The notes beneath the pieces were generated by a model that saw nothing but the letters and a program-made list of their open reading frames with translations, ran no database searches and was not told the DNA's origin. Of a stretch of DNA of 64,000 nt, positions 11,896 to 33,500 are shown one piece after another (position 1 is the stretch's first letter; each line of letters starts with the position of its first letter). Location of the stretch: positions 1-64,000 of the IMG/VR virus record IMGVR_UViG_3300020229_000001. One strand, 5' to 3'. Made by a program: the position numbers and the translations under genes. The DNA is from a virus.

Positions 11896-11900
11896 ATTTT

Positions 11901-18841: not shown

Positions 18842-19026
18842 CGTGCGTTTTTTAAGGCTTTCATCCGCTCGATCATCCTGCCGAGATCGGCCTCGAGCTC
18901 CGCTACTCGAATTTTCAGCCGGCGGATCTCCTCCTCGGCCTGCTCCAGGGCATGGTCTTCGTCCATTGGACGCTCCCCGGTTGAACACAACCTGGAGCCT
19001 TCAATGTATCGCACGCGCCCGCTCAT
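18838..19026 (-). CDS. Small coiled-coil protein
   Basis: A 62-residue protein from ATG 19026. Residues 24-60 form a heptad helix (LEQAEEEIRRLKIRVAELEA). Coupled to both neighbours by ATGA. Function unknown. Confidence 0.55.
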   Translation of the reverse strand: MSGRVRYIEGSRLCSTGERPMDEDHALEQAEEEIRRLKIRVAELEADLGRMIERMKALKNAR

Positions 19027-19334
19027 GCGGACCTCCGAACAAAGGTGAATGTGCCGACCGGCCTGGAGTCCAGCTCCTCGCATTCCCACACTCCGTTGGG
19101 AAGCTCAAACGACCAGCCGACCGCTTGCTCCCATTTAAGGGGCGCCGGCGCCGTGTCTGTTCCGTCTTCGTAAAAGATCACTGGGACTTCATGCCCCATG
19201 CTGCATTCGTAGGCGTTCACCGCCCGATAATAGGCGCGCTCTCCGGCCCAAGAGCAATTCTTGCCGGCCTTTGCGCGGAGCACCGCGTTCCAAAGGGTTT
19301 GATTCCGCGTAGTTGTAGGTAGTGTTGCAGTCAT
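19023..19334 (-). CDS. Hypothetical protein, beta-rich
   Basis: A 103-residue protein with several Trp residues (KWEQAVGWSFELPNGVWECEEL). It begins after a TAATAAATAA leader with a 9-bp stem-loop (19342-19373) just upstream. It is the first gene of the tightly coupled run 19334 to 15642. No family recognised. Confidence 0.58.
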   Translation of the reverse strand: MTATLPTTTRNQTLWNAVLRAKAGKNCSWAGERAYYRAVNAYECSMGHEVPVIFYEDGTDTAPAPLKWEQAVGWSFELPNGVWECEELDSRPVGTFTFVRRSA

Positions 19335-19341
19335 TTATTTA

Positions 19342-19373
19342 TTACGGTTTTTGTCCGCGGTTACAAACCGTAA
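19342..19373 (-). promoter_or_regulatory. Stem-loop before a gene run
   Basis: TTACGGTTT (19342-19350) pairs perfectly with AAACCGTAA (19365-19373) around a 14-base loop, eight bases before the ATG at 19334. It could be a translational or protein-binding operator. No U-run marks it as a terminator. Confidence 0.4.
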
Positions 19374-19446
19374 CCTTGGACTGTTGTGGTTGTTTTTAAC
19401 TGAGACGCCAAGCTATTGGGAGTTAGAACCCAGGTCAAATTTATTT

Positions 19447-19731
19447 TCAATTATTTTTCCACTGCTCTCCTATTTCGTCATTATCATCATCGTCTTGAGG
19501 CACTTCTGGTTCTGCTTCGTTGTCTTCAGAATGGTAATTTGGGCATGATTCTTGGTCGTTGAAACTGCGCTCCATGACGCATTCATCGCAGCCACACAGC
19601 ACCGCGACTGATATCTGAATGATCTTTCCATCATGCTCGCCGTCAGAGCATTGTAACTGAGCCTTGAAGTTTGAAATTCCGGCACCCAAAGTAAAGTCTG
19701 CGATTGTTGCGATTGCTTGTTTGAAGTCCAT
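19447..19731 (-). CDS. Acidic hypothetical protein with Cys cluster
   Basis: A 94-residue protein. C-G-C-D-E-C (about 47-52) plus further Cys may bind metal; the last 25 residues are strongly acidic (PQDDDDNDEIGEQ). The acidic tail may bind basic partners or mimic DNA. It follows the loader gene. Not recognised. Confidence 0.5.
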   Translation of the reverse strand: MDFKQAIATIADFTLGAGISNFKAQLQCSDGEHDGKIIQISVAVLCGCDECVMERSFNDQESCPNYHSEDNEAEPEVPQDDDDNDEIGEQWKNN

Positions 19732-19752
19732 TAGATTGAGGCGGTTAAGTTT

Positions 19753-20406
19753 TTAGTTTGTTCTGTAAGACGGCCAATCGCAGAACGCGACGCCGCCGGT
19801 TTCTACGATCCTGGAAGCGACACTGTTTCCGATAGTGTCCAGGAATTTTGTTTGGTTTTGGTTAGTGATCAGCAGTGTGTCACGCATGGCGCCGTAGCGT
19901 CGGTCAATCAAATGCGTGAGAAGCCGGTTTTCCCAGGGGGTTTCTCCACGCTCCTGGAGCTCATCCAAGATCAGCAGACTTGGACCGCAATACGCATCAA
20001 TGACTGCTTTCTCCGAGCGTTTGCCCTCAAACGACTCTTTAATGTCGAGAAAGAACCCCATCGCCGTTGCGTACAATGGCGCCTTGCCGGCCCCCGCGTA
20101 GGTTTTGGCGATGGTTGCCGCCAATTGGGTCTTTCCGGTGCCCCTAGAGCCGCACAGAGCGATGATGAATCCGGAGTGGACCTTGGCCTCAACTCGAGCC
20201 AGGAGCGAAAGCCATCCTTCCCCTCGAGGCTCGACCGGTTGCCGGTGGCGATGGGGGATGTTGGACTTCTCCATCAGTTTGTGGGCAAGGATGCGTCGCT
20301 CCCTGGCCGCGGATTCTGCAACCCGTTGATCGATGTCGTCCTGGTCAAAAGACTGGGACATCAATGGACTCAGGACACTCTCCACTGCGTTTTTCAAGTT
20401 TTGCAT
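19753..20406 (-). CDS. DnaC-like helicase loader ATPase
   Basis: A 217-residue AAA+ protein. Walker A GSRGTGKT at 86-93, Walker B LLILDEL at 144-150, a sensor-like LLITNQ and an SRI-arginine region near the C-terminus match DnaC/IstB-type loaders. The N-terminal 60 residues are helical and would bind the helicase. The gene overlaps the initiator gene by 62 bases; an alternative ATG at 20361 would shorten the overlap. With the initiator it forms a pair like lambda O and P. Confidence 0.85.
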   Translation of the reverse strand: MQNLKNAVESVLSPLMSQSFDQDDIDQRVAESAARERRILAHKLMEKSNIPHRHRQPVEPRGEGWLSLLARVEAKVHSGFIIALCGSRGTGKTQLAATIAKTYAGAGKAPLYATAMGFFLDIKESFEGKRSEKAVIDAYCGPSLLILDELQERGETPWENRLLTHLIDRRYGAMRDTLLITNQNQTKFLDTIGNSVASRIVETGGVAFCDWPSYRTN

Positions 20407-21151
20407 TTGTTTTGGTTTCTATGTGAATTCCGCTCCAGCCCTTTTCCATTGATTGAATCATTCCGGCTATCGCCGCCGGCACTCCGACCTCCACCGCCTT
20501 GGCGAAGACCCGAGTCCTGGACGGGAGCGTTTTGGCCGATTGCTTCTTCTTGTACGCGATATACTCAAGCCAGACGTTGACAAACTCCGGAACATTCAGG
20601 ACCGCCGGCAGGCCATCAAGCGGATGACCCCAGGCTGACTTCCGAACCCTGGGAGCTGCGACAGCAGCGACCGCCCCCTTAAAGGGGGTAGGGGGTATTA
20701 CTTGGTTACTGGTTCTTGGTTCTTGGTTCTTGGTTGGTATACCAGCACCCGTATACGGCACCTGGTATTCCTGCGGTATACTTTCTGATACCGTCGGTAC
20801 GGTTTCCGATACCGTCGGTATACCGTCGGTATTTTTAGACCATCTTTTTGACACTCTGGCCCTCTGCTGTTCCGAAAGCGAACGGTACTTTTCAAGCTCT
20901 TTGTCGGCTCGTTTGTGAGACCATACACCGTTGCAGTGAGAAAAGAACTCCCGCAAAACTCGTTCCACGGCTTCACGCTCGTCCTGAGCCCGAGCGCACA
21001 GCTTTCGGATTGCGTCGTCAACAGTGAGTTGAAGTGGTCCGTTGTTGAGGTAATAGAGATCGAGCAGGCGGCTGTAGACGCCGTGCTCTAGCAGAGACAG
21101 GTGACCGGTGTCCCGGAGGTAGTCCCCAATGTGTCGAGGGTAGTGGTTCAT
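20345..21151 (-). CDS. Replication initiator, DUF1376 (YdaU-like) family
   Basis: A 268-residue protein. Residues 1-85 (HYPRHIGDYLRDTG, LEHGVYSRLLDLYYLNNGPL) are a clear DUF1376 winged-helix domain. Residues about 105-150 are a low-complexity Thr/Val/Pro linker encoded by the iteron-like cluster at 20736-20832. Residues about 165-250 form a second helical domain. This order (DNA-binding domain, linker encoding the origin, loader-binding domain) parallels lambda O. It probably opens the origin and recruits the DnaC-like loader encoded downstream. Confidence 0.82.
   Translation of the reverse strand: MNHYPRHIGDYLRDTGHLSLLEHGVYSRLLDLYYLNNGPLQLTVDDAIRKLCARAQDEREAVERVLREFFSHCNGVWSHKRADKELEKYRSLSEQQRARVSKRWSKNTDGIPTVSETVPTVSESIPQEYQVPYTGAGIPTKNQEPRTSNQVIPPTPFKGAVAAVAAPRVRKSAWGHPLDGLPAVLNVPEFVNVWLEYIAYKKKQSAKTLPSRTRVFAKAVEVGVPAAIAGMIQSMEKGWSGIHIETKTNAKLEKRSGECPESIDVPVF
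20736..20832. repeat. Iteron-like palindrome cluster, candidate replication origin
   Basis: ATACCGTCGGTA occurs at 20788-20799, 20809-20820 and 20820-20831; each is a near-perfect inverted repeat. Related palindromes are GGTATACC (20736-20743) and CCGTATACGG (20750-20759). A run of TTCTTGG repeats (20710-20734) adjoins it. All lie in the linker region of the initiator gene, as iterons do in lambda O. The origin function is inferred. Confidence 0.6.
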
Positions 21152-21441
21152 TTGGTCGGACGAATTCGGCGGTTAGCCTCCTCCTGGGGATACCCAACTT
21201 TCACCAGGCCTTTCTTTAGGTCGTCGTCTGTCCATGTCTCTCCTTCAATAGGGTAGCGCATATATTCATCCAGATGGTCCCACCGGTTGCTACACGTCCT
21301 GGACGCAAACCAGTCCCACCAAACAATTCTGGCTACCGCGGCCCTGTACCGGGTTGGCAACCGCTTTACATTGTCCGCCCAGACGTCTGGGTCAATTCGG
21401 CGCCCGCGTGATATCCAAGGTCTCCCGCTCACTTTGCTCAT
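21148..21441 (-). CDS. Hypothetical basic protein
   Basis: A 97-residue protein, Trp- and Arg-rich (RRIDPDVWADNVKRLPTRYR, WWDWFASRTCSNRWDHLDEY). It begins at an AATAAATAAATT leader and overlaps the initiator start by ATGA, so it is likely part of the replication operon. Not recognised. Confidence 0.58.
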   Translation of the reverse strand: MSKVSGRPWISRGRRIDPDVWADNVKRLPTRYRAAVARIVWWDWFASRTCSNRWDHLDEYMRYPIEGETWTDDDLKKGLVKVGYPQEEANRRIRPTK

Positions 21442-21851
21442 AATTTATTTATTTTAACTTCAATTTTTGGATCTTCGCCAATTGCTGCGTAGCACTTTCC
21501 GAGGTTCAGACGCACGATCTGGGCGTCGTCGTGCCAGAAGCCTTTTATGGCGTCCTGGAGCCCCTTCTGGAGGTTGTCCAGGTCGGGCCGGTGGATGTTC
21601 CATATGCGATCCGTTGAGTGCTTTTTAGCCATCAACACTTTTGGCCGGCGCAAAACGTACAGCACCTTCATCTCCAGGGCGCCTTCCAAGAGCACTGCTG
21701 GCCGGTAGGGAGCAGTCAGCCACTCGATTGACTGCTCCCATTTGACGACCTTTTTCTGCTTAAAGAAGATCGGCTTTCCGGCGCGCACCATCACCCGCTT
21801 TCCCGAAAACTGAACCGACATTGGGTCCACGGGGATAGTGAATTCAATCAT
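21438..21851 (-). CDS. rusA: RusA-like Holliday junction resolvase
   Basis: A 137-residue protein from ATG 21851 (overlaps upstream stop). The RusA signature is clear: RPDLDNLQKGLQDAIKG with Asp90, Asp92 and Asp100, then W-HDDAQI (Asp108-109) and a downstream K119. RusA enzymes cut four-way junctions and resolve recombination or replication intermediates before packaging. Length is typical (family about 120-140). Confidence 0.9.
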   Translation of the reverse strand: MIEFTIPVDPMSVQFSGKRVMVRAGKPIFFKQKKVVKWEQSIEWLTAPYRPAVLLEGALEMKVLYVLRRPKVLMAKKHSTDRIWNIHRPDLDNLQKGLQDAIKGFWHDDAQIVRLNLGKCYAAIGEDPKIEVKINKL

Positions 21852-22609
21852 AATTGAGGGAACGCCTCTTTGTCTGGAGTCCAAGCCAAGGTCAATTTCC
21901 TGCCAGTCTTTGACCACTTCATGGCTTTAACAAGAACCGCCGTTAAATGGAGGCATCCCTCATTCCTCGAAGGCGCCAATCGTTTTTTCATGTACAAATC
22001 AAAGGCAGCTTGGGCGGAATCAAATTCGCTTTTTGACAGCTTTAAAAGCCACTCATTAACCCAATTGAGGCCATAAGCACGCATTGCAACAAAGAAAGCC
22101 GCGTGCTCAACGCTGGATGGAACTTTGAAAAACTTTAGGCGTCTCGATTTAACGCAATCGCGAATGTCTGGATTATCCTCTAAAATTTCACGCTGCGGGG
22201 AATAAGCTAATCGCTGATAACGTCCTCCAAAGATTTCGGCAATCAGGTTGATGACGGCACTCAAATGTTTAACGTTTTTCTCTTCATCAAAGGCGAGCAT
22301 ATCTGAAACCGTCCTCGGTTGAACTATGTCTATAGAATAGATGTACTCGTCAGGGATTCCGCGAGTCACCCACGTCTCAAATGAGACGTTAGCCTTGATG
22401 CAAGCCATCAACCGTTTCTGCCCATCGAGCAATCTTCCAGTAACGCCAAAACGAATGTTGGACGCATTCAGTTGCCAGTTTCCGCTGGCCATACTCTTAG
22501 CGTAGAGGTCAATTCGATGGTTCGACGCAGGACGATTTACCCAGTTTTGTAAGAGCATTCTATTTGCAATTGCTGGGGTGATAAGTTCAATTCTAGCTGT
22601 CTGTTTCAT
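21848..22609 (-). CDS. ParB-superfamily-like phage protein
   Basis: A 253-residue protein. GRLLDGQKRLMACIKA (59-74) corresponds to the GxxR/HxR motif of the ParB-like fold, preceded by YAKSMASGNWQLN and followed by V-TRGIPDEYIYSID...PRTVSDML. This pattern is known from many phage proteins of unknown function. The C-terminal half is helical. It is distinct from the ParB-like gene at 10939. It begins after an AATAAATACA leader. Confidence 0.68.
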   Translation of the reverse strand: MKQTARIELITPAIANRMLLQNWVNRPASNHRIDLYAKSMASGNWQLNASNIRFGVTGRLLDGQKRLMACIKANVSFETWVTRGIPDEYIYSIDIVQPRTVSDMLAFDEEKNVKHLSAVINLIAEIFGGRYQRLAYSPQREILEDNPDIRDCVKSRRLKFFKVPSSVEHAAFFVAMRAYGLNWVNEWLLKLSKSEFDSAQAAFDLYMKKRLAPSRNEGCLHLTAVLVKAMKWSKTGRKLTLAWTPDKEAFPQL

Positions 22610-22627
22610 TGTATTTATTGGGTTTGG

Positions 22628-22755
22628 GTTTTGCGCGTTTTACGAATGCGCGCCCCTCGGGTTTGCTGCTTTTACGAGAGCGTACTACTCCGGTTTGCTG
22701 CTTTTACGAGAGCGCGCCCCTCGAACTTGCTGTTTTTAATTTGCGTTTTAACTTG
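22628..22755. repeat. 32-bp tandem repeats
   Basis: Units at 22628-22659, 22660-22691 and 22692-22723 share a 32-bp period; a fourth at 22724-22755 is degenerate. The second and third share 23 identical leading bases (GGTTTGCTGCTTTTACGAGA...). The period is not a multiple of three. Each unit has CGAG...CTCG arms that could form a small hairpin. The last units form the 3' end of the small zinc-protein gene. Confidence 0.75.
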
Positions 22756-22877
22756 GCTTCTTTTGTGTCTGACTTTGTGCAAGCTTTGCACTTATTTAGA
22801 TGGCCGTCGCTCATCCTTAGGTGGTGATAAAACTCAGTGAGGGGAAGTTTATTTCCGCATTTGAAACACGTTTTCAT
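22704..22877 (-). CDS. Small zinc-binding protein
   Basis: A 57-residue protein. CFKCG (4-8), then PLTEFY, then DGHLNKCKAC (24-33) make a four-Cys zinc site typical of small phage HNH-like or zinc-ribbon proteins, here without the HNH catalytic part. Its ATG overlaps the SSB-like stop (TAATG). The 3' end runs into the 32-bp repeats and the stop codon lies in a repeat unit. Confidence 0.7.
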   Translation of the reverse strand: MKTCFKCGNKLPLTEFYHHLRMSDGHLNKCKACTKSDTKEAKLKRKLKTASSRGALS

Positions 22878-23407
22878 TAAAACGGAATATCGTCGTCAGC
22901 CAGATCAACAGGATCTGTCGCTTTCACTACCCGCCCTGGGACAACGGCCTTAGCGGCCAACCCCCGAGCGTTTGCCTTCATCCCGCGGTCCAAGGCACCA
23001 AGGATCGACCGGATCTTGGCTGGGTCTTGAGCGACGGTAGACTCCGGAGCGTTTGGATTATTGAGCCACTGCGCTTTCAGCGACTTCTTGCCATTCCAAT
23101 CGTTCCATTCAATGACAACTTCCACCTCTTTGCCAGCAAACGGCACTCGGCCATCTGCCAAAGCGGCTGAATCCCAGTCCCAGTCAAAACAGCGCTTAAG
23201 CTGGTCCTGGGTGATCTGCCGGCCTTTGTCAGTGCTCAACGAGCCGAACCAAGTTATTTCTGTCCCGCTGTTGTCGCCCTGGCCGTGGTCGATGACCATG
23301 CCAATGACAACGCTCGGCTTGTCGTCCTTGGACAAATATACCCAGGACTTTGATTCTTTGACGATGGCCAAGTAGCGGCCAGGTTCCGTTGGTTTTGTGT
23401 ATTCCAT
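22877..23407 (-). CDS. ssb: Single-stranded DNA-binding protein (probable)
   Basis: A 176-residue protein. The body is beta-rich with aromatic residues (TWFGSL, CFDWDWDS, VVIEWNDWNG), and it ends DLADDDIPF, the acidic tail with terminal hydrophobics that SSB proteins use to bind partner enzymes. It sits directly downstream of the Sak4-like and exonuclease genes, as expected for a recombination and replication set. The OB fold itself cannot be verified by eye. Confidence 0.7.
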   Translation of the reverse strand: MEYTKPTEPGRYLAIVKESKSWVYLSKDDKPSVVIGMVIDHGQGDNSGTEITWFGSLSTDKGRQITQDQLKRCFDWDWDSAALADGRVPFAGKEVEVVIEWNDWNGKKSLKAQWLNNPNAPESTVAQDPAKIRSILGALDRGMKANARGLAAKAVVPGRVVKATDPVDLADDDIPF

Positions 23408-23408
23408 A

Positions 23409-24287
23409 TTACTGTAGGGTTTTCAATTTTTCGATTCCGACTTTGATCCGGTCAGCAGGAAGCTGATCAACCGGTGTTTTCTGCCACTTGGCTTTGGCTT
23501 CTCCTTCGAGTTTGGCCGTGCTTAAGAGGGCGAGAAATTGTGCGCGGAGCTTGTCTGGCCGGTTGGCCTCGACTTCTGCCGCAAAGGTTGCGTAGTCCAA
23601 CTCCATCACTTCAGAAAGGCCCAGGCGGTTCTTAGCGTCCCACCCTGGCGACCAGGTGGTGTGCAATACTCGACCGCCGCCAGTGACCTTCTCGTTATTG
23701 GAGCCGCGCTCCTTGGTCTTGTAGACCTCGTAAACCGCAAACAAACAGGCGTCTGGCCACTCGCGGAGAATTCCGGTGAATCCCTTGTGCCCCTTCATTT
23801 CGTAGCGATCCCATGTATTGCCGTCCGGCGCCGAGAACGTCTTGATCTGGACGTGCGAGAGCAAGATGATCCCAAACTTCTGGCGCTGCCGGAGCGTGTC
23901 CAGTTTGGCCAGGAGAAGGCTAAGCTCCTGCTCGGCGATCTTGTAGCCCTTGCCAAACCCGTAGTCCTCAACGCCGGCTTTCCCGTCGCGCTTGCAGATA
24001 AACTGGTGGATGCTGCGCTCAAGCCAGTCGGTTGTGTCCAGGACCAAGGTCTTGTACTCGCCGGCGTCCAGGGTGAGCGCCTCGACCATCGCCGTAGTGT
24101 CGGCATAGGTTTCAGGGCTGATCCTGGCAACGTGATCCAGACCGGTGAGGCCGTCCTCCTGGGAGATAAACAACGGGCTGGGCGCCCCTGCTCCGAACGT
24201 TGATTTGCCAATCCCTTCCGGACCGGAAAGAAGAACTCGAGGTGGGAGGCTTTCGCCGCCGCGTTTGATTTTAGTTAGAATGCTCAT
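23409..24287 (-). CDS. Sak4-like RecA-fold ATPase
   Basis: A 292-residue protein. Walker A GPEGIGKST at 22-30, Walker B LVLDTTD at 81-87, a LLSHVQIK strand, then a conserved KGF region. This matches the Sak4/AAA_24 group of phage single-strand annealing or recombination ATPases, which usually pair with an exonuclease and an SSB, as here. It begins after an AAATAAATACAACC leader. Confidence 0.82.
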   Translation of the reverse strand: MSILTKIKRGGESLPPRVLLSGPEGIGKSTFGAGAPSPLFISQEDGLTGLDHVARISPETYADTTAMVEALTLDAGEYKTLVLDTTDWLERSIHQFICKRDGKAGVEDYGFGKGYKIAEQELSLLLAKLDTLRQRQKFGIILLSHVQIKTFSAPDGNTWDRYEMKGHKGFTGILREWPDACLFAVYEVYKTKERGSNNEKVTGGGRVLHTTWSPGWDAKNRLGLSEVMELDYATFAAEVEANRPDKLRAQFLALLSTAKLEGEAKAKWQKTPVDQLPADRIKVGIEKLKTLQ

Positions 24288-24295
24288 GGTTGTAT

Positions 24296-25354
24296 TTATT
24301 TGCTGACAATGAAATGGCGCAGGAACGTTTCCGCGGCCAGGTGAAAGGCGGTGCCCAGGGCGAGGGCTTCTTCTGTCTCTCCGACCTTCATGGTGGGAGA
24401 CTCGTATTTAAGGTAATGATACCGGCTGCACTTCCTCAGGGCCGTCAGCCGGCTATTAGTGAGGAGTTCTTTGGTGTTGGTCTCCTTCATCTCGAGCTCA
24501 GCGTGTTTTTCCGGCTTTGGAGCGTACCGGATGCCATCAACAGCCGACCGGCCTGAACAGAGCTCAAAGTACTCGCAGGTGCCGAACTGGGCGCAGGCGC
24601 TCGGGTTTCTGGGCCAAAGGTTCCGGCGGCGGAACCAAAGGATCTGCTGCGACAACGCCCAGGCGTCGTTCATGTACTCGAGCAGGTCGGAGTCGCTGCG
24701 TGCAATGTCACGCTGGACAAAGTAGTCCAGGGGCCGGTCACTGATCTCCTTAAACGTCCGGTCAAACAACTCCTGGGGCGTCTCCGGCCTTGAGAGAACA
24801 GCCCACCCGCGCTCAGTGTCCGCTGTCTGACGCCATTTTTTGCCGTCACTTGTGGTTATCCTGTTGCCGAACTGGTCCTGGACAATTTTGAGCCCGTTCT
24901 CGTCCAGGGTCGGCACCGAGCCGAGCTTGTATCCTGGTTTCCGGATAACGTCGTAGCAAACTTGGTTTGCGTCCAGGCCGCGGGCGCGGAGGCTCAATAG
25001 ATATTTGGAAATTTGCGTGTCCATCACCAGCCTGGGCCAGTAGTTGCTGTCCGAGTCGATGCTGTCCGCGGTCGTCTTGTGCTCGAGCACCTTTATGGTG
25101 CCAGAACGCTTATTGCGGAGAACGCCGTCAATCTTGCCGGCCTCCAGGAAGGTCTTGGACGGCGACTCAGTCTCGGGATTAAGGAGCGGGAATGAGAATT
25201 CCGACTCGACCTCGAGGACGTCGTGTTCGTCCAGGATGTGCCGGAAGGAACGGGTCCAGCCCAGGAAGAGGGCTGCCGCCTTTGCGGTCGCTGCGTTGGC
25301 AATGTTAATGGTTGCCATGCCGGCATCGGCGGCGTCAGTGTACTGATTTGTCAT
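24296..25354 (-). CDS. Cas4/RecB-like PD-(D/E)XK exonuclease, apparently circularly permuted
   Basis: A 352-residue protein. The nuclease core is at the N-terminus: AGKID with Asp76, EHK with Glu91 and Lys93, then DSNYWPRLVMDTQISKY. Three Cys (254, 260, 266) follow near the expected end (KPEKHAELE). After Met289 comes LLTNSRLTALRKCSRYHYLK...ALALGTAFH, which is normally the N-terminus of this family and carries the fourth Cys (309) of the 4Fe-4S cluster. All key residues are present but the order is rotated. It degrades DNA ends for recombination. Alternatively the last 64 residues could be a separately started peptide. Confidence 0.78.
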   Translation of the reverse strand: MTNQYTDAADAGMATINIANAATAKAAALFLGWTRSFRHILDEHDVLEVESEFSFPLLNPETESPSKTFLEAGKIDGVLRNKRSGTIKVLEHKTTADSIDSDSNYWPRLVMDTQISKYLLSLRARGLDANQVCYDVIRKPGYKLGSVPTLDENGLKIVQDQFGNRITTSDGKKWRQTADTERGWAVLSRPETPQELFDRTFKEISDRPLDYFVQRDIARSDSDLLEYMNDAWALSQQILWFRRRNLWPRNPSACAQFGTCEYFELCSGRSAVDGIRYAPKPEKHAELEMKETNTKELLTNSRLTALRKCSRYHYLKYESPTMKVGETEEALALGTAFHLAAETFLRHFIVSK

Positions 25355-25466
25355 TGGATGTATTTATTTGAATTTCCAGCTCAGTGATGCGGAGCTGAAG
25401 GCGCAGGTTTTCTTGAAGGAGCTCACGAATGCGCTCTTGTAGGAGGTCAATGAGGTGAGCGCTCAT
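25335..25466 (-). CDS. Tiny leucine-zipper-like protein
   Basis: A 43-residue ORF: LIDLLQERIRELLQENLRLQ and on is a regular Leu heptad helix. It overlaps the exonuclease start by 20 bases and the upstream gene by 20. May oligomerise. Function unknown. Confidence 0.5.
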   Translation of the reverse strand: MSAHLIDLLQERIRELLQENLRLQLRITELEIQINTSNDKSVH

Positions 25467-25638
25467 TATTTCGTGCCTCCAGGCCGCCGCACCGAGCGCG
25501 GAGGGATTTATTTTTTGCCGCTCTAGCGTTTGTCTGCGCCAGTTTTTCGGCTTTTGTGCGGTTTGGATTTTTTACCCGATTCCCGGAATAAATCCAACAT
25601 TCCGTCATTCCGCCCATGCCGGCTGTTCGCGAGCCCAT
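25447..25638 (-). CDS. Small basic hypothetical protein
   Basis: A 63-residue protein from ATG 25638, whose A is shared with the upstream stop (TAATG). Basic (NPNRTKAEKLAQTNARAAKN). Not recognised. Confidence 0.45.
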   Translation of the reverse strand: MGSRTAGMGGMTECWIYSGNRVKNPNRTKAEKLAQTNARAAKNKSLRARCGGLEARNNERSPH

Positions 25639-25904
25639 TATTTCCGAGCCTCCAGTGCTGCAAAGATGACAAGGATCCCGGTCGGCATTGTCAGCGCGGC
25701 CACAATGCAGGCCTCGACCGCGGACTCGGCAAAATGCGCCATGGCGCACCCGTCTGCCATCAGTAGTGCGACGCCCACCAGCAGCCAGACCGTGGCGGTG
25801 GTGCGCTGTGGGCGCGGGCGCAGGTGCGGATCCCCGAGTGGGATCCGGATCGTATCGCGGCCGACGTCGCCCCGGGGAGGGCGGGAATAGTGTGAGGTGC
25901 TCAT
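25638..25904 (-). CDS. Two-TM membrane protein
   Basis: An 88-residue protein. The Arg/Pro-rich N-terminus (1-35) is followed by two membrane helices (about 37-57 and 63-84). Coupled to both neighbours. It could be a small early inner-membrane protein; function unknown. Confidence 0.52.
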   Translation of the reverse strand: MSTSHYSRPPRGDVGRDTIRIPLGDPHLRPRPQRTTATVWLLVGVALLMADGCAMAHFAESAVEACIVAALTMPTGILVIFAALEARK

Positions 25905-25907
25905 TGT

Positions 25908-26366
25908 CTATAAAAGTTTGATAATGGTTTCGGCGACAGCGTCAAGCGTTCCGGCTCTCTTGAGCGCGGCAATTCGCTCGCAAAGATCGACGAACTCGCG
26001 CAGCCTGGCTATTTCCTGATCGTGCTCGGCCCCGACAAAAAAAGTGCGGATATCTTGTAGCTCTTTTTTTATGGCGGTCACTTCGGCGACGTATGCGATT
26101 TTGAATCCCTTCAAATTTGAGAGGTGATTCTTCATGTTTTCCCGGTGTTTTTCCATATCCCCGCCGATGCCATTGTACATTTCGTCGATTGTCGCCCGGG
26201 CGTCTTGTGCCATGAGTACTTGAGGCCTGGTTTCTCGTGGCATCTTGCCGATTTGCTCTGCAATTAAGACGGCTATGTCGTCAAAGCTGTAAACATCCTC
26301 TCCGTTGACAATCTTGGTTTTGATTTTGCTGTCGCTGTCGTGACTGCTCATTACGTTATTTTTCAT
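25908..26366 (-). CDS. Hypothetical helical protein
   Basis: A 152-residue protein from ATG 26366, chosen because a GATAAATAG leader precedes it (an ATG at 26351 is possible). Charged, mostly helical, with a coiled-coil stretch (YVAEVTAIKKELQDIRTFF). Not recognised. Confidence 0.55.
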   Translation of the reverse strand: MKNNVMSSHDSDSKIKTKIVNGEDVYSFDDIAVLIAEQIGKMPRETRPQVLMAQDARATIDEMYNGIGGDMEKHRENMKNHLSNLKGFKIAYVAEVTAIKKELQDIRTFFVGAEHDQEIARLREFVDLCERIAALKRAGTLDAVAETIIKLL

Positions 26367-26371
26367 ACTAT

Positions 26372-26770
26372 TTATCGTTTTGAAATCAGGTACCCCGCCC
26401 GCACCCCCGCAACGATCCGCTCGTCCTGAGCGGTCGTCAGCGACAACTGGCTGCCTCCGCCGTGCCATGTCTCAACGCTGGCCAGCTCGGCGAGCGTCCA
26501 GCCTGTGGCGACGCGGACCAGCGTGGCGTGGGTGATTTTGACCTTGTATTTGTAGGCCGACGGCAACTTTTGCCCAGACGCCACTACTACGCTGGCGCCC
26601 TTGCGAGCGCTAACTGGCAGTCCGAGTTTTGCGAGGGCCGCCTCGGACGCCTCCGCGCAGGCGGTGATCTCGCTGGCCCGGGTGTAGGTGTGGGCCGTTG
26701 CTTTGCCGTTAACCGCTAGTAAGGCGGCGGTAATGGCCGCTGCGTTAGAAGTCGTGATTTTGATTTTCAT
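26372..26770 (-). CDS. Conserved phage hypothetical protein
   Basis: A 132-residue protein beginning MKIKIT. The pattern NGKATAHTYTRASEITACAE, then LGLPVSARKGA, AYKYKVKITHATLVR and a C-terminal LTTAQDERIVAG resembles a small family I have seen in phages, with no known role. Its leader (24 bases) is identical to that of the next upstream gene. Confidence 0.55.
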   Translation of the reverse strand: MKIKITTSNAAAITAALLAVNGKATAHTYTRASEITACAEASEAALAKLGLPVSARKGASVVVASGQKLPSAYKYKVKITHATLVRVATGWTLAELASVETWHGGGSQLSLTTAQDERIVAGVRAGYLISKR

Positions 26771-26784
26771 GTTTGGATTTGGTT
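26761..26784. repeat. 24-bp direct repeat, first copy (gene leader)
   Basis: The identical 24 bases occur at 26761-26784 and 27017-27040, spanning the first codons (ATGAAAATCA) and the untranslated leader of two adjacent genes. Likely a duplicated translation or expression signal. Confidence 0.7.
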
Positions 26785-26787
26785 AGA

Positions 26788-26808
26788 GGCGGGGGATAGA
26801 ACCCCGCC
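26788..26808. other. 7-bp stem-loop between two small genes
   Basis: GGCGGGG (26788-26794) pairs with CCCCGCC (26802-26808). It lies between the stop at 26817 and the leader of the 26770 gene. No U-run follows, so it may be an mRNA-processing or stabilising hairpin. Confidence 0.4.
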
Positions 26809-26816
26809 AGGGGTGA

Positions 26817-27026
26817 TTAGTTTACCGGAACAATCTGCGCATTCTTGTACCTGGATTCCGCCTGGTATTGTGCGAGAGCTTTGTGCGCCAGCACCAGGTT
26901 GCCGCAGTATGAAGTTGCGCCCCAGGTGTCATTGTCGCGGTCCTGGACCACAATTGCGTGGGTGTAGGTGCGGTTGGTTGTGCGCTTCGCGATTGTGCCG
27001 TCGGGGAGAGTAACTGTGATTTTCAT
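26817..27026 (-). CDS. Small hypothetical protein
   Basis: A 69-residue protein from ATG 27026 (MKITVTLPDGTIAKR...). Beta-strand start, then VQDRDNDTWGATSYCGN and a helical KALAQYQAESRYKN. The start is set by the leader repeat shared with 26770. First gene after the strong terminator at 27115, so a promoter may lie between 27027 and 27114. Not recognised. Confidence 0.55.
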   Translation of the reverse strand: MKITVTLPDGTIAKRTTNRTYTHAIVVQDRDNDTWGATSYCGNLVLAHKALAQYQAESRYKNAQIVPVN

Positions 27027-27040
27027 GTTTGGATTTGGTT
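27017..27040. repeat. 24-bp direct repeat, second copy (gene leader)
   Basis: Second copy of the leader repeat at 26761-26784; covers the first codons and untranslated leader of the gene at 26817-27026. Confidence 0.7.
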
Positions 27041-27114
27041 GTGGTTTCGTTGGCCGTACTGCGACCAACTGGAGCTATTAGAACCCACGGTTAGAATCTT
27101 GTGAAGCTTTTTTT

Positions 27115-27151
27115 ATAAAAAAAAGTGCGCTGCGGTTAAACAGCGCACTTT
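27115..27151 (-). terminator. Rho-independent terminator
   Basis: A perfect 11-bp stem (27122-27132 with 27141-27151, core GTGCGCTG/CAGCGCAC) with an 8-base loop. Read on the minus strand, the stem is followed by eight U (27117-27124) and more AU-rich sequence. It ends the transcript coming from 27159 and above, just 8 bases after that gene's stop. The best terminator in the window. Confidence 0.88.
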
Positions 27152-27158
27152 CAGCCAC

Positions 27159-27335
27159 TTAGTAGCTGTATGTCGTTCGTCCGTTGCGTCGTCGCTTCAC
27201 CTTTCCGGACATTTTTCCACGCCCTTGGATGTTTTCAAAATTGGATTGGAACTTCGCTTTGTCCACCGGCCTGGGATCGTCTCCCTTTCCAGCGTGAGTT
27301 GAGTAGCATGGCCACTTGAATAGGTCTTCTTTCAT
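27159..27335 (-). CDS. Small basic hypothetical protein
   Basis: A 58-residue protein (MKEDLFKWPC...), strongly basic at the end (KVKRRRNGRTTYSY). ATGA overlap with the upstream gene and close position before the terminator support it. Could bind nucleic acid. Not recognised. Confidence 0.6.
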   Translation of the reverse strand: MKEDLFKWPCYSTHAGKGDDPRPVDKAKFQSNFENIQGRGKMSGKVKRRRNGRTTYSY

Positions 27336-27493
27336 TTGTCGTCCATTGGCTTTGGGTTCTTGCCTTTAAACAGCCCGCCAAGCTTGCTGTTCAGCTTCTT
27401 TTTAGTGCCGGCGTGAATGCGACTATTCCGGAGCTCCTGCTGGGTCTCAGTGATCGCAATGCAACGTTGAAGATGCGGGTTCTTGTGTTTCAT
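27332..27493 (-). CDS. Small basic hypothetical protein
   Basis: A 53-residue protein (MKHKNPHLQR...), Lys-rich (GTKKKLNSKLGGLFKGKNPK). ATGA overlaps at both ends. Not recognised. Confidence 0.58.
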   Translation of the reverse strand: MKHKNPHLQRCIAITETQQELRNSRIHAGTKKKLNSKLGGLFKGKNPKPMDDK

Positions 27494-27678
27494 AACTCGT
27501 TGTCTCTTTTAAGCTTAAAAGATGAAAGCATATGCCGAGCAAGCACATCTTTGCGTTGCGGGTTTGCCTTCTTTGCGTCTCCTCCAGCAGGCTCATGTGC
27601 ATGAGCTCGAGGAGCTTCAGCTCGGCTCGCTGACGGGTTCTTCGTCGCCTGTCTGCTGTACTGGTTCTTGGCTTTCAT
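27490..27678 (-). CDS. Small basic hypothetical protein overlapping its neighbour
   Basis: A 62-residue protein from ATG 27678 (MKAKNQYSRQ...FKLKRDNEL), ending in an ATGA overlap. It overlaps the gene at 27617 by 62 bases in another frame, which lowers confidence in the start. Not recognised. Confidence 0.42.
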   Translation of the reverse strand: MKAKNQYSRQATKNPSASRAEAPRAHAHEPAGGDAKKANPQRKDVLARHMLSSFKLKRDNEL

Positions 27679-27877
27679 TTTTCGGAGTGATTTTTTGAAG
27701 CACCGCGGTGGCAACCATGAGACGGAAAGACAACGTATTGAGAGCATTAAGAACATCAGCAATCACCTCTTGGTGGGTGACCTTCTCAAAGTCAATGGCG
27801 TTAATTGTTTGCGCAAATAGCTGCTCCATAGTCATTTGCTTAGGAGCTTCAGGCTGGGTTTCTTCGTTGGTTTCCAT
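27617..27877 (-). CDS. Hypothetical acidic protein
   Basis: An 86-residue protein from ATG 27877. It has an acidic, Pro/Glu-rich start and end, with a helical middle (TMEQLFAQTINAIDFEKVTH, LSFRLMVATAVLQ). Not recognised. Confidence 0.55.
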   Translation of the reverse strand: METNEETQPEAPKQMTMEQLFAQTINAIDFEKVTHQEVIADVLNALNTLSFRLMVATAVLQKITPKNESQEPVQQTGDEEPVSEPS

Positions 27878-27878
27878 T

Positions 27879-28136
27879 TTATTTTCTAACTGAGCGACGT
27901 GCCGGAATTCGGGCAGGTTTGCCTGGCATCGTGATTTTCTTTTCGTCTGTCTTAACTTTTTTTGCGTCGGCGGCACCTTTGTCCTTTGTTGGTGATTTGT
28001 AGGGCTTTGCAGCTTCCAGGCCGATACGGATTTCCGGCGAGCCGGTGTTTAACGAAACGCCAGAGTGGGTCTTTTCGGGCGCCTGGTAGGACGCTTTACC
28101 AGGCGTCACGGGGGTTTTTTTAGGTGGGAATCTCAT
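27879..28136 (-). CDS. Lys/Pro-rich hypothetical protein
   Basis: An 85-residue basic, low-complexity protein (TPVTPGKASYQAPEKTHSG, KKVKTDEKKITMPGKPAR). Probably disordered. Coupled to the upstream gene by ATGA. Not recognised. Confidence 0.52.
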   Translation of the reverse strand: MRFPPKKTPVTPGKASYQAPEKTHSGVSLNTGSPEIRIGLEAAKPYKSPTKDKGAADAKKVKTDEKKITMPGKPARIPARRSVRK

Positions 28137-28354
28137 TTGTAATTCTCTTTTTCTGTTAACATTGTCTCAGCAAGCTTGAATGACTCTACAGAAGCGTCGG
28201 ACGAGTCCCATCCGGCAGCAAGCAGGCCGGTAAGAGCTGCCGCCGCAAAGTAGTCCAGGATGCTCATGCCGCTGTTTGATCGCACCGCCGCATTGTCTCG
28301 GTCGCCAGGGTAAGCCTGGACAGGAAAAGCTGGGTAGATAGGTATTCGTTTCAT
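28133..28354 (-). CDS. Conserved small phage protein (GMSxxDYFAAxAL family)
   Basis: A 73-residue protein. SNSGMSILDYFAAAALTGLLA is a motif found in many small phage proteins of unknown role, followed by an amphipathic helix (SFKLAETMLTEKENY). An AATAAATG leader precedes it. Confidence 0.68.
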   Translation of the reverse strand: MKRIPIYPAFPVQAYPGDRDNAAVRSNSGMSILDYFAAAALTGLLAAGWDSSDASVESFKLAETMLTEKENYK

Positions 28355-28357
28355 TTA

Positions 28358-29059
28358 TTAAAAAAGTCTGTTTAGCCAGAGCGTCCTGGCTCCAATCGGG
28401 TCGATCAGAGGTTTTCCGAGGCGCTCGTTGACATTATTATGCAGACGCACCGACCAGTCAAACAGACGAGTGTAGTCCGGCGGGTCGGCAGCCAGGAAGG
28501 CTTCCAGGTGCGCTTTGCACGGGCACCCGTCAAACGGGAGGTCTCCCATCCAGTCCAGGAGCCAATGGTGCATATACCTAGGTTTCCCTTCGTGCCGGAG
28601 CGCGTACAGGTGCAGCTCCGCCCAAAACCTCGGGCCGGCCAGCATGATTTGGCTCTTCCGGCTTTCGCCGCGGTCGTAGATGCGCTCAACCTCGTTGCCG
28701 GCGTTGATGACCCATTGGTTATGGGCGTCCCAATCAGTTGAGAATGACATTGCGACCGTTTTCTCGGTCAACATGGCCGCCTGGTGTTGGATATGGTACG
28801 GCGCCTTGGGATCGTCGCCAGGCTCCTCGAGCTTGGGATGATCGGTGTCAAATTTGGTGACTTCCTCGTCGGTGATCCCGTCGCGCTTACAAAGCCATGC
28901 TTCGACAAGCTCATGCAGGGCCACCAGGAGGGCGCTTTGGTCCTGGCCGCCGTAGTCTGGCGCCGTAATCTTCAGCGCGCCGTCTGGGAGCCATTCCCAG
29001 TCGCCGGCTGTAGGATAACGCATGGCCGACGCGTCGATGGTCTTAATCTCAATCCTCAT
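28358..29059 (-). CDS. HExxE-domain protein fused to Erv1/Alr-like thiol oxidase domain
   Basis: A 233-residue protein. The N-terminal part has LLVALHELVEAWLC (His49, Glu50, Glu53) followed by GITDEEVTKFD, a recurring phage domain. The C-terminal part shows PRFWAELHLYA (144-153), CPCKAHLEAFL (179-189) and W202 with HNNVNERLGKP (207-217), matching the helical FAD-binding Erv1/Alr thiol oxidase fold. The usual CxxC is replaced by C-P-C, so redox activity is uncertain. It overlaps the ATP-grasp gene by ATGA. Confidence 0.62.
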   Translation of the reverse strand: MRIEIKTIDASAMRYPTAGDWEWLPDGALKITAPDYGGQDQSALLVALHELVEAWLCKRDGITDEEVTKFDTDHPKLEEPGDDPKAPYHIQHQAAMLTEKTVAMSFSTDWDAHNQWVINAGNEVERIYDRGESRKSQIMLAGPRFWAELHLYALRHEGKPRYMHHWLLDWMGDLPFDGCPCKAHLEAFLAADPPDYTRLFDWSVRLHNNVNERLGKPLIDPIGARTLWLNRLF

Positions 29060-30324
29060 TCGTTAAACACGCTGAGGTTGAGCTTCTCCATTTCCTTGAT
29101 CTGCTCTCGCACCTGCTCAATGGCAGAGCTTTTTGACTCGAGGTAGTAACCTTCAACCTGCTCTGCGTTCTCTAAAGCGTGCGCAAACGCGTCTTCCATT
29201 GTGTCGCCCAGGCCGATAACAGCGCCTATCTCCGGCAGCCCACAGTCCTGGGGGATGCAATAAAAGCCGTCCTTGTTCTTGTAAACGTTCCGGAGCTTAA
29301 CAAAATCCCGGATCTCGTCGGGGAATTTGACCTTCTGCCAATTCTGGTCCGCCCAGGACGAGTGGAGCATGATCTCGGCGCCATAAATGGCCGTCGGCTC
29401 AGGATCAACCACAACGCCGTTCGCTCCGTACCACATACACTCTGCCAGGTTGGAATACTGCTCCTGGTAGAGCTCGTTTGGAGGACTCGGAGCCCTGGCG
29501 CAGAAATCGATCATGTAGGGATCCATGTCTTTCCCGATCCGGATCTCGGTCGAGAAAAAGCCGCGGTATCCGTAAGCCTCGAAAACCGGCTTCATCGCCT
29601 CATTAAAGCGAGTTAAAGGTTCCGGAAGGTCGGCGTAGTTTTTGAAGACGGAGGCGAACCCGCAATCCTTGATCTCCAGGCCGGAGATGAGCGTATTCGG
29701 AAACTGGCCGTCGATTGTCCAGGCATCTGTCCCAAACTCAACGCGGTCGGGAAGGTCTTCCTCGACAATAAATTTGAGGTCATGCTTGAGCGGCCCGAGC
29801 TTGTACTCGACCTCGTCCAGTTTTGGCTCCACCTCTTCATACGAGGGCGCCTTGAATGTTTCAAAAGTGCCGCGGTACTTGTCGATCTTGACGTGAACGT
29901 CGTCGTGCTCCTTCAGGAAGGAGCGCAGGTTGTCCATGCCAGTGATTTCCCAATACTTGCCAACAGGCAGGCCGGTGCGCTCGATAATGCGCTTCATGCC
30001 GGCGCGGTCCAGTTCCATTTCCTCGCCCAGGCGAGAACCCCAGACAACCTTACCCATCCGGTCCAGCATTCGCTGCTCCCATCCAAAATAGATATCGGGG
30101 AAGCAGAAGAAATCGACGTCGTCAAAATGCGGGCCGTAGATGGAATCAACCAGCTCCAGGCCGTCCAACCCCTTGCCGATCCAGGCGGTGTTCAGCTTGG
30201 CAAAGGCGCACTCCCAGGGGCAATAATAGTAAACCTTTTTGAAGGTCTTGCTTAGTTTTAGCGCAAGTTCAACAAACAGGCCGTTGTCTACGACAAGACA
30301 GACTACGTCTTTTGGGTCTTTCAT
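29056..30324 (-). CDS. ATP-grasp ligase-like protein
   Basis: A 422-residue protein. The N-terminal domain (about 1-100) is alpha/beta. The ATP-grasp part (about 105-340) has VHVKIDKYRGTFETF, the FIVEEDLP strand, and metal-binding GFFSTEIRIGKD...PYMIDFCARAPSPP...N-LAE. This resembles the carboxylate-amine ligase group (PurD, biotin carboxylase-like). Substrate unknown; phage ATP-grasp proteins may make amide-linked modifications. It lies with the Erv-like gene directly upstream of the replication region and downstream of the giant protein. Confidence 0.75.
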   Translation of the reverse strand: MKDPKDVVCLVVDNGLFVELALKLSKTFKKVYYYCPWECAFAKLNTAWIGKGLDGLELVDSIYGPHFDDVDFFCFPDIYFGWEQRMLDRMGKVVWGSRLGEEMELDRAGMKRIIERTGLPVGKYWEITGMDNLRSFLKEHDDVHVKIDKYRGTFETFKAPSYEEVEPKLDEVEYKLGPLKHDLKFIVEEDLPDRVEFGTDAWTIDGQFPNTLISGLEIKDCGFASVFKNYADLPEPLTRFNEAMKPVFEAYGYRGFFSTEIRIGKDMDPYMIDFCARAPSPPNELYQEQYSNLAECMWYGANGVVVDPEPTAIYGAEIMLHSSWADQNWQKVKFPDEIRDFVKLRNVYKNKDGFYCIPQDCGLPEIGAVIGLGDTMEDAFAHALENAEQVEGYYLESKSSAIEQVREQIKEMEKLNLSVFNE

Positions 30325-30590
30325 TTGCAGTTCCAGCGTTTAAGTGATGCGGCTTTACGGGTTGGGCGACCCTTTTCGTCTTTCATCGGACCGGGATTGC
30401 CGCTCATTCTAGCGCAGAATGAAGCCTTTCTGCCAGCGTCGGCCTTGGTCTTTGGGTGCGGCGCAGGCGCCTTCAAGTTGCTGCCAGTTGCCGCGTTGAT
30501 TTTGGCTCGGCCCTTGGCTGTTAGCCCGGCGCCCCGGGAAACAGGAAGCTTATCTCCCTTCGATACAGATAGTTTTGGTGTTTTTGGCAT
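30321..30590 (-). CDS. DUF6321-like phage protein
   Basis: An 89-residue basic protein. GLTAKGRAKINAATGSNLKA, then RKASFCARMSGNPGPMKD, KGRPTRKAASLKRWNC is a conserved phage family that I recognise as DUF6321. No known function; Lys/Arg-rich enough to bind nucleic acid. ATGA overlap with the ATP-grasp gene. Confidence 0.75.
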   Translation of the reverse strand: MPKTPKLSVSKGDKLPVSRGAGLTAKGRAKINAATGSNLKAPAPHPKTKADAGRKASFCARMSGNPGPMKDEKGRPTRKAASLKRWNCK

Positions 30591-30591
30591 A

Positions 30592-33500
30592 TTATTCTTC
30601 GTCTTCTCCTTCAGCTTCTTTTCGCAGTTTTTCTGCCGCTTTGATTGCTTTTTCTTTTTCCATCAATTGCTTCATTAGCCCCTTATTGGGAGACTTAACG
30701 CCAGTGAGGTTTGCCTCATCGGCCTCGGACAAGAGTCGCACTGTTTCCCCTTTACGATCCACTTGGAACAAACCTCCAGCTTGGATGATGTCCAAAGAAA
30801 ACTTGGCGGCGTCAGCGTAGTCCGCTGGCTCTGCTCCGCTCGTTGCCGCCCCGTACTTGCCAAACAATTCCTTCTCGTTAAACCACAGGGCAGCCTGCAT
30901 ATCGGCAATGGTAACAACAATCCCGGCTTGAGCAAGCCTAGCCTGAGCCTGCTCCATCGTTGTCTGCTGAAACGCCCGCTCGTTACTGGCCCGAGGTGCG
31001 CCAAGCGGCGTTGTGCGATCCTGCACCCAATTCTTGGCGGCTCTTCGTAATTCGGTTTTTCCCTTGAAGCTGCCAGTTCTGAATACTTTTTCAAGGTGCT
31101 CCGCAAACTCAAGCATCGCGCCGCTGTCTTCTAGTAATTTGTGGAATTCTTTTTTCGACCATCTGGGCGCGTCTTCTCCGTAAAGGTAGGGCTCTTCAAC
31201 TCCTTTTTTAATGAGCACTCGGTCGGTATATTCCTTGCCTTTTTTGAGCGCCTGATTTCTGTTGTATTCCTCAATCAACGAGTCTTGAAACCGCTCAAAT
31301 TGATGCCCTTCCTTGAGAGGATCATACTTAAATGAGCGACCAAGAATTCGATTCCACGTTCTGGTATACCAAAGGTCGGCGGTTAGCGTTGAGTAGTCGC
31401 CGTGGAGGTTATTAATGAAAGATCCGATCTTTGGCCCAAAGACCATAAACCCGGTCACCATTTGATTTTTGCCGCCCTCAACAGACAGCGGCTCCCCGTT
31501 GTAATACAGGGAGGTGTCTTGCTTCAGATTCTTGTTCCAATTTGCAACAGTGTCCGTTTTGAACAAAAGGGCTCGGAGCTGACTTGGGGTATGCCTTGTC
31601 AGCAACTCGTGCAATTTCAGTATGTTGTTTTCAATCGCGGCAGTTTTATCGCCGAATGTGCCATGCAGTGCGGTGACAATTTCTGGAAGGGTTTTGCCAT
31701 TTTCTAACATTAGCGTTACCCGAGTTGCCATTTTGCCATTCTCGAAGACGTCGTTGCCCTGAGACGCAATCCCGAGAACCGCATCGAAAACAAGGCTCTT
31801 GTCTGCGTCGTGCTGGGGAGACCCAACCTCGAGCCACGGAAAGAGTTGCGAGTACATTCCCTTCATCCGCTTCAGGGCCGCGTCGTACCATCCAATTGCG
31901 TTTGGAGACTTTGGATTCAGCGCGGCCCTCGCCATGTGCTGCTGAACCTCGTCGGCCACAACTGACGAAATGATATCCATCGCCCTCGGGCTATAGTCTC
32001 CGGGCAGGATTACCCCATCACTGGCCGCTCGATTCTGCAACGCATGAATCATGTCCGGGACGGCTGTCTCCCGCTTGCCTGCAAGCGTGTACGTTGACCT
32101 CACGGGCAGGATTTCGGTTCCTGCCAACAGCGGACTGGCGCTCCGGGCCATTGGGTCTACCGGGTACAGCTTGTCCTTTATGTACTTGGCGTCGGAGTCA
32201 CTGAGTCCGTACCGCTTGGCGTAGAGGGCTGGGTCGAAGATGTAGCCTTGCGCGGCTGCTGCCTTGGCGTAGTCGATAAGAAGGCTATCGATACTTCGTT
32301 GTAGTAAGGACTGTCCACCGGAAGTGGCTTGAAGCCAAACCGGGAGAACTCTCTGGTTGTCTCTTCCCTTGAATATTTTTTCAGTTTCATAAAGCTCTGA
32401 GGCTACAATTGTTTCGTATGATTGATCGATTGATGCTGATTTTTGGATTTCACTGAGCTTGCTGGCAAAGTCCTCGGTCCCAAAGTTGAGTGCCTTGATG
32501 CCCTTGCCGTCCGTTGTCGTAGAAACGTCTACGCCAACTTCTCTCGCTTTGTCAAAAGCCAACTTCAACTGGTCGTCGGTGAGCTTTGTAGAATGGATCA
32601 GGTATGCTGCCTGAGTGCCTTCTTTAAGGTCAATTGACGGCTTGTAGGTGATGCCAGCGTCTTGAGCAAAAGCAAGAGTTAGAAGCTGAGTGATTTGCTT
32701 TGCCTTGTCAAACGTAAGTTCAGGATGAACCAAATCAAAAGATGGTTCTACCTTCCCCTGCCACGTTCCTGCAATCGGCCTAATCTCCAGACCATCAAGG
32801 CCAAAGAAGTCTTTTAGTATCCCGTTGAAGCCATCGGATTTCAGAATGTCATGCACTGAGTCTCCAAGCTCTGCCATGCTGCGAATTCCAAGCGGATTGG
32901 CGGTGAATGGAGCAGGGGTTGCCTTTAGCGACACCTCTTCAAACGACCTGTTTAGCTTTTTGACTTGAGCTTTCCACGCGGCGTCTTCCGGGCTCATGTT
33001 CTGCATCTTTTCCGGGAACTGCGAGCGCATCTCTTCGATCTGGGTGTCGAGCGCGGCAACCTTTTCCGCATAGGCGGCCTTCTTTGCTTCAAATTCCGCC
33101 GTTTTTTCAGGCTTCTTTGCGTTCTTAGCCGCCTCGTCTGCCTTGGCAAGCAACTCAAGTTGGCGTTGTTTTTTAAGCTGCAATTCGCCCCATGTTTCAA
33201 CTGCTGCCTTTTGGCCGGAAACCGTTTTAAGCTGATCTCTTAGCTCGGATGCCGTTCTGTAGGTGTAACCGTGCTCACCGGGCTTGGCTCCAATCACAAC
33301 GCTGAACATCCCGCGTTCATCAGTGATGGTTTTGGGAAGCGGAGCAATTGACGCAAGAGCAGGCAGACGCTCTTCCTCTTTTGGCTCTATTTTTATGCCT
33401 TCCAGCGCCCCGGGAATATTTTCGTTGTCCGGCATAAACCGCACCTGAGCACCTTCAAGGGCTCCCGAGGCGCTGGGGTCGGTTAGGAATGGTTTAATTT

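Follow-up and report, generated by a model that had tools for sequence, protein, structure and literature searches.

A circularly permuted RecB/Cas4-like exonuclease from a viral genome, and evidence for repeated permutation in its family

The window analysed here is a 64,000-nucleotide stretch of the virus record IMGVR_UViG_3300020229_000001. One uninterrupted open reading frame (ORF) on the minus strand occupies exactly positions 24296–25354, starting with ATG and encoding 352 amino acids. Pfam, PHROG, a rotation scan and a structure model identify its predicted product as a RecB/Cas4-like PD-(D/E)XK exonuclease of the PF12705/phrog_1218 kind in circularly permuted form. Pfam PDDEXK_1 (PF12705) matches at E = 5e-9 (36.8 bits, against a curated cut-off of 22) and the exonuclease family phrog_1218 at E = 4e-25, each in two stretches. 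Residues 22–267 correspond to positions 96–330 of the 364 in the PHROG profile, and residues 299–346 to positions 3–50 of the 247 in PDDEXK_1. The canonical PF12705 order, with the opening segment first, is absent from the window protein; this segment, bearing the first cluster cysteine and a G-x3-H motif, stands at the C-terminus. Judged by homology, the permuted variant belongs to the PF12705 family.

Four segments, S1 to S4, follow one another in the usual order S1-S2-S3-S4 (1234) in unpermuted relatives and in the order S2-S3-S4-S1 (2341) in the window protein. Segment S2 (residues 1–84, 25103–25354; all features here are on the minus strand) comprises helices, the VExEF motif and the GKxD strand; it is N-terminal here and, according to segment HMMs and alignment, comes after the opening segment in unpermuted relatives. 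The catalytic Asp76 lies in GKID (25127–25129), followed by the catalytic Glu91-His92-Lys93 (25076–25084) and by Q114-x3-Y118 (25001–25015), the motif of the RecB family named QhxxY in the available text of PMC4176176. Three cluster cysteines, Cys254, Cys260 and Cys266, span 24557–24595. HAEL (residues 284–287, 24494–24505), the natural C-terminal motif of unpermuted relatives, stands just ahead of the seam (residues 288–298, 24461–24493, from linker measurement), at which the old C-terminus meets the old N-terminus. The transposed opening segment S1 (residues 299–352, 24299–24460; Pfam and segment HMM) runs from TNSRL through the fourth cluster cysteine, Cys309 (24428–24430), to LGTAFH and includes helices. 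The ORF, Asp76, Glu91-x-Lys93 and all four cysteines lie where the original prediction, made from the sequence of the window, had placed them.

That prediction, a circular permutation, is supported by sequence, profile, structure-model and comparative evidence. Using an HMM built from ten unpermuted relatives only, we scored every rotation of each protein. The native window protein reached 247 bits over profile positions 86–352 of 355, and the best rotation, at residue 292, reached 288.9 bits over positions 2–350; an end-to-end match to unpermuted homologues was obtained only after rotation. Every rotation scoring no more than 3 bits below the best fell at residues 270–295. Rotation also raised the scores of other permutants: from 189 to 234 bits for Tunturi_2, from 170 to 216 for L039 and from 266 to 293 for L198. 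In three unpermuted controls the native order gave the best score or came no more than 0.4 bit short of it, and a single shuffled copy gave no match to this HMM. In blast, the alignment of the native window protein to the unpermuted protein of Microbacterium phage Zanella stopped at the break (49.7 bits, ~111 residues), while that of the rotated protein continued through the seam (57.4 bits, ~213 residues). Pfam and PHROG matches were split in the permutants and continuous in the unpermuted proteins L038 and L046. Both parts are homologous to the unpermuted protein and stand in exchanged order over the full length, as in a circular permutant.

AlphaFold2, supplied with 63 permuted rows, placed both parts in one fold with a mean pLDDT of 95.2 and a pTM of 0.88; an earlier model from 11 close rows was poor (pLDDT 63). 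The modelled fold of the window protein is RecB-like. VIA-align superposed model residues 4–269 on residues 838–1039 of the AdnA nuclease (Z 9.6), 1–268 on residues 76–271 of the Cas4-family protein ACE1 (Z 8.4) and 11–242 on residues 199–336 of MGME1 (Z 8.0), with lower values for RecE, AddB, Cas4 SSO0001 (6.0) and lambda exonuclease (5.8); these are single PDB matches of middling Z, and the tool warns that values below 8 may mean little. Residue 1 of the model meets ACE1 about 70 residues into its chain. That the aligned part starts well inside the chains of free-standing enzymes is expected if the opening segment has moved. A Foldseek search of the permuted model against the PDB returned weak partial matches with large r.m.s.d., as expected of a permutant, and the best predicted viral protein match, A0A6J5NSY1, was the only one listed with a query-normalised TM score above 0.7. 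Among PDB sequences, phmmer with query P0001 found nothing meaningful, and a profile of the unpermuted relatives found AdnA at E = 0.003.

At the last census, at least 379 loci had been gathered from eight viral and two genome scans, each scan contributing at most 80, out of 98, 130 and 198 relatives in three of them. Among the matches listed, four segment HMMs found two or more segments in each of 211 distinct ORFs. An ORF counts as distinct if no other contains it; near-copies are included, as is the second copy from the record of the window itself. Complete interior ORFs numbered at least 123 in order 1234, at least 62 in order 2341 and at least 2 in a further order, 3412; the values 62 and 123 are not frequencies, because loci were fetched with both permuted and unpermuted queries. 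ORFs at contig edges added 3 to order 1234 and 4 to order 2341, and 17 of the 211 were partial, mostly cut by contig ends. The permuted order is inherited: 63 rows align in the order of the window protein, at 23–94% identity to it. All permuted sequences come from metagenome or metagenome-assembled genome (MAG) contigs except those of the phages Tunturi_1 and Tunturi_2. Unpermuted relatives, for which the original prediction had advised a search, proved common. They include the close sister L038, 41% identical over residues 45–291, and the further sisters L046–L054. The notion that the window protein has no close unpermuted relative was rejected. The scan of genome contigs gave ten relatives with query A3 and none with P0001 alone, and a plasmid search with L193 gave no match.

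The permuted chains open at three places. L218, L281 and a near-copy of L218 that comes from another metagenome, L219, share the general order 2341, with a break that the alignment places one helix later than in the main group. In L193 and L353, of order 3412, the chain starts at the Glu-x-Lys strand and ends just past the catalytic Asp, so that the cut falls in the hairpin connecting the two catalytic strands. The seam is always the same, joining HxEL, the old C-terminus of unpermuted proteins, to T-x-S, their old opening, just as the prediction of a natural-looking C-terminus fused to a natural-looking N-terminus had it. The linker measures 8–19 residues (median 11) in the 60 measurable rows of the 66 permuted rows listed. 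Permutation is probably tolerated because the native termini adjoin where the first cysteine meets the last three; joining them would cost a linker of about ten residues, after which the chain could open in outer loops.

Such proteins could arise if the gene is duplicated in tandem and the copies are fused in frame, with a start and a stop then newly formed within the pair. We favour this route because three break points with one seam follow directly from it, and regard an origin by tandem duplication as plausible. As to the original prediction, the permutation stands, and the duplication route that came with it is plausible but unproven: none of the 211 distinct ORFs among the matches listed, a limited sample, carries any segment twice, and the flanks of L281, L218, L219 and L193 held nothing convincing as a duplication remnant. 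The available text of PMC3320104 gives duplication, and fission with fusion, as the two standard routes to permutants. On the second, the gene would have been split and its halves fused in the other order. We consider this unlikely here, as three break points would require three kinds of split, and neither a split gene nor an interior ORF with segments 2-3-4 only was found among the 211. Two observations concern L353. A small ORF just upstream of its 3412 gene (L353:2361-2501) contains VVEHKT, which resembles the catalytic strand. A 15-base exact repeat, considered as a duplication remnant, was discarded as too weak (E = 0.002, against 0.006 in an unpermuted control).

How often the chain was reordered was addressed with trees of proteins rotated to a common order. 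For the first tree, 120 ORFs were reduced to 106 by removing short rows at contig edges, rows that scored weakly in the core and those with no opening segment, and to 94 after dropping rows more than 90% identical. Later trees held 62, 76 and 79 rows, hand-chosen from those available; the last omitted L285, L227, L288 and L299 of the 76-row tree. In all three of these later trees, the window protein falls in a permuted group P1 and the Tunturi phages in a permuted group P2, each fully supported. The free 94-row tree split P1 from P2, and holding both together raised the likelihood by 16. The trees do not fix how P1, P2 and the unpermuted clades branch at depth, so P1 and P2 could represent one event or two. 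L218, L281 and the pair L193 and L353 lie inside an unpermuted clade, Ua (100/99). L218 is 63% identical to the unpermuted L214, and L281 60% to the unpermuted L230. L193 and L353 are 48% identical, pair with support of 99/94, and stand beside unpermuted genes in Ua (97/97, 79-row tree). Support for the small clade of L281, a single contig, went from 99/93 with 76 rows to 90/89 with 79.

Four AU tests, with uncorrected p values, did not reject P1+P2 as one clade (p = 0.795), weakly and marginally rejected P1+P2 joined with L193 (p = 0.032), and rejected both L218+L281 (p = 0.007; this label was given after the nearest relatives had been seen) and all 2341 proteins, P1+P2+L218+L281 (p = 0.0007), as single clades. 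These sequence comparisons support at least four separate permutations: in the large old group that holds the window protein and the Tunturi phages, in L218/L219, in L281 and in L193 with L353. Counted most simply, there were four permutations, with three break points and one seam. A single ancient permutation behind all permuted orders, followed by reversions and by moves of the break point, would fit the identical seam everywhere, the retention of P1+P2 as a clade and the weakness of the rejection with L193. We nevertheless find it improbable, given the two firmer rejections, the different break points and the 60–63% identity that L218 and L281 share with unpermuted genes, and given that reversion itself requires new permutations. 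This recurrence within the family had gone unseen in the original prediction.

The residues expected to work are kept in these repeatedly permuted proteins, as had been predicted, with the active-site residues and four cysteines present in 62–63 of the 63 permuted rows. Asp76 is found in 62 (one gap), Glu or Asp at position 91 in 63, and Lys93, Gln114, Tyr118, Cys254, Cys260, Cys266 and Cys309 in 63 each. From what we know of RecB/AddB/Cas4-type nucleases, we take Asp76, Glu91 and Lys93 to bind metal and cut DNA. Position 91 is Glu in 41 rows and Asp in 22, the P2 rows L017, L039 and L040 among the latter. The C-terminal 57 codons show dN/dS of 0.12–0.14, and the core 0.075–0.235, in three pairs that include the window gene; for the transposed segment, two other pairs gave 0 and 0.12, and two further pairs were saturated. 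These ratios indicate that the transposed segment is under purifying selection.

The same data bear on whether the locus holds two genes, a core nuclease and a small protein translated separately from Met289, sharing one ORF by chance. The window protein does have a Met there, after a natural-looking C-terminal motif; however, only 7 of the 63 permuted rows have it, so no separate start is conserved at the seam. The segment is in frame, is under the selection described above and, in the confident model, belongs to the same fold as the core. Among the matches listed, all 66 complete or edge ORFs of order 2341 with four segments are continuous, and none of the 211 is an interior ORF with segments 2-3-4 but lacking segment 1. 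These data speak against a separate protein of residues 289–352, and we give the two-gene reading very little credence. An assembly or recombination artefact can be dismissed almost entirely. In its favour, the 94-kb record containing the window looks like a join of two related phages, and the relatives are mostly metagenomic. Against it, an independent 51.8-kb contig carries the gene together with 13 kb of its surroundings at 99.99% identity, dozens of contigs and two isolated phages show the same order, L218 and L219 are near-identical from two metagenomes, and L193 and L353 share a break point at 48% identity.

The record itself, of 94,385 bases, has a composite appearance. Positions 64001–94385 form a second, divergent but syntenic copy of about 3.9–31.9 kb of the window, and by tblastn many of its ORFs are 40–84% identical to those of the window. 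This copy has its own permuted exonuclease (87215–88258, 65% identical). The far end, 93118–94383, is 97% identical to window positions 30661–31860, and window positions 18299–31354 are 99.99% identical to part of the separate 51.8-kb contig. From these comparisons, the record probably joins two related phages.

Downstream of the permuted exonuclease gene of the window, also on the minus strand, lie a gene for a Sak4-like single-stranded DNA annealing ATPase (AAA_24; 23409–24287; Pfam AAA_24 1.6e-37, phrog_124 3.8e-36) and one for an SSB-like protein (22877–23407), the latter matched weakly by phrog_378 (5e-4) and with a Tunturi_2 homologue annotated as SSB. The same cluster contains a RusA-like Holliday junction resolvase (21438–21917, minus strand; phrog_140 4.9e-29), and a DnaC-like loader gene lies further downstream. 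Exonuclease, a small ORF, Sak4 and SSB also follow one another in this order in Tunturi_2, an isolated phage of Acidobacteriota. A Sak4 gene follows the exonuclease in 59 of 63 main-group permuted loci, 2 of 3 loci of L218, L219 and L281, 1 of 1 for L193 and 81 of 94 unpermuted loci; L353 stands outside this count. In every order, SSB genes too neighbour the exonuclease gene at most loci. The Sak4-like protein is a probable functional partner of the exonuclease. From the position of the gene upstream of those for the Sak4 annealase and SSB, we infer a likely role in DNA-end resection for phage recombination. The enzyme would resect double-stranded DNA ends, leaving single strands for the Sak4 annealase and SSB to use in annealing or strand invasion.

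The phage exonucleases of PF12705 and PHROG 1218 share with the window protein the catalytic Asp, Glu-x-Lys, QxxxY, four cysteines and the G-x3-H opening segment, and their genes likewise neighbour those for Sak4 and SSB in the loci sampled; they differ in order, 1234 when unpermuted and 2341 or 3412 in permutants. The label 'Cas4-like', given in the original prediction, holds loosely, in the sense of the 'Cas4-like proteins of pfam12705' named in the available text of PMC5704561, and probably fails if taken to mean a CRISPR Cas4. With CRISPR Cas4 (SSO0001, Pcal_0546), the window protein has the RecB-like fold in common. Unlike those proteins, it is permuted, has all four cysteines within 56 residues (254–309), is not closest to Cas4 in sequence, and has Sak4, SSB-like and RusA genes as its named neighbours. 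The nuclease domains of AdnA, AddB and RecB, and MGME1, RecE and lambda exonuclease, match the fold of model residues ~1–274; all of these are unpermuted, and AdnA, AddB and RecB carry a helicase.

According to the available text of PMC4176176, Cas4 has an Fe-S cluster held by one cysteine of the N-terminal part and three at the C-terminus, and the cluster links these two regions of the chain. The window protein has the arrangement of 'iron staple' nucleases: of its four conserved cysteines, the opening segment bears one and the region close to the native C-terminus the other three. By analogy, these four would hold an Fe-S cluster.

Taken together, a permuted exonuclease that arose in at least four events, with a likely role in end resection, a putative Fe-S cluster, adjoining termini that make permutation tolerable and a plausible origin by duplication, is an account in which we have high confidence. 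Its striking new part is the repeated origin of the permuted order. The literature searched yielded no account of a RecB/Cas4-like or PD-(D/E)XK nuclease in permuted form, and an earlier mention is possible for other PD-(D/E)XK families. To our knowledge, natural permutants with close unpermuted sisters (60–63%) and several independent origins are rare, and DNA methyltransferases are the nearest known parallel for repeated permutation of a DNA enzyme. That family is permuted in several ways, also in phages, according to the portions available of PMC7824862 and PMC3320104. It has an unrelated fold, and duplicated intermediates are reported there, whereas none was seen here.

A bolder and more tentative reading, which we think possible though doubtful, is that this phage exonuclease has a lasting tendency to be permuted again and again, at least four times and at three break points. 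Possible causes are tandem duplications made by the recombination module of which the gene is part and new termini that alter contact with Sak4 and SSB or regulation. On the same reading, the cluster must do more than staple, since the cysteines are invariant although the cluster no longer ties the chain ends. Permuted and unpermuted pairs offer a direct test of whether an Fe-S cluster of the Cas4/AddB type only staples or aids DNA binding or catalysis, because the cluster cysteines are kept even though the chain ends are now covalently joined. As matched pairs differing only in chain order, they would also allow tests of the part that order plays in folding, processivity and partner contact, and the family is an unusually good natural test of the limits of protein-chain rearrangement. 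Annotation by profile may miss or halve such genes.

Two further observations concern the setting of these genes. The window carries two adjacent tRNA genes on the plus strand, for Met (cat) and Thr (tgt), at 11821–11975. In a Chthoniobacterales MAG (L198, JACSRX010000002.1), a permuted exonuclease of the window protein's group, 58% identical to it, has Sak4 and SSB genes downstream; this locus is perhaps a prophage, and as such a lead to hosts in Verrucomicrobiota.
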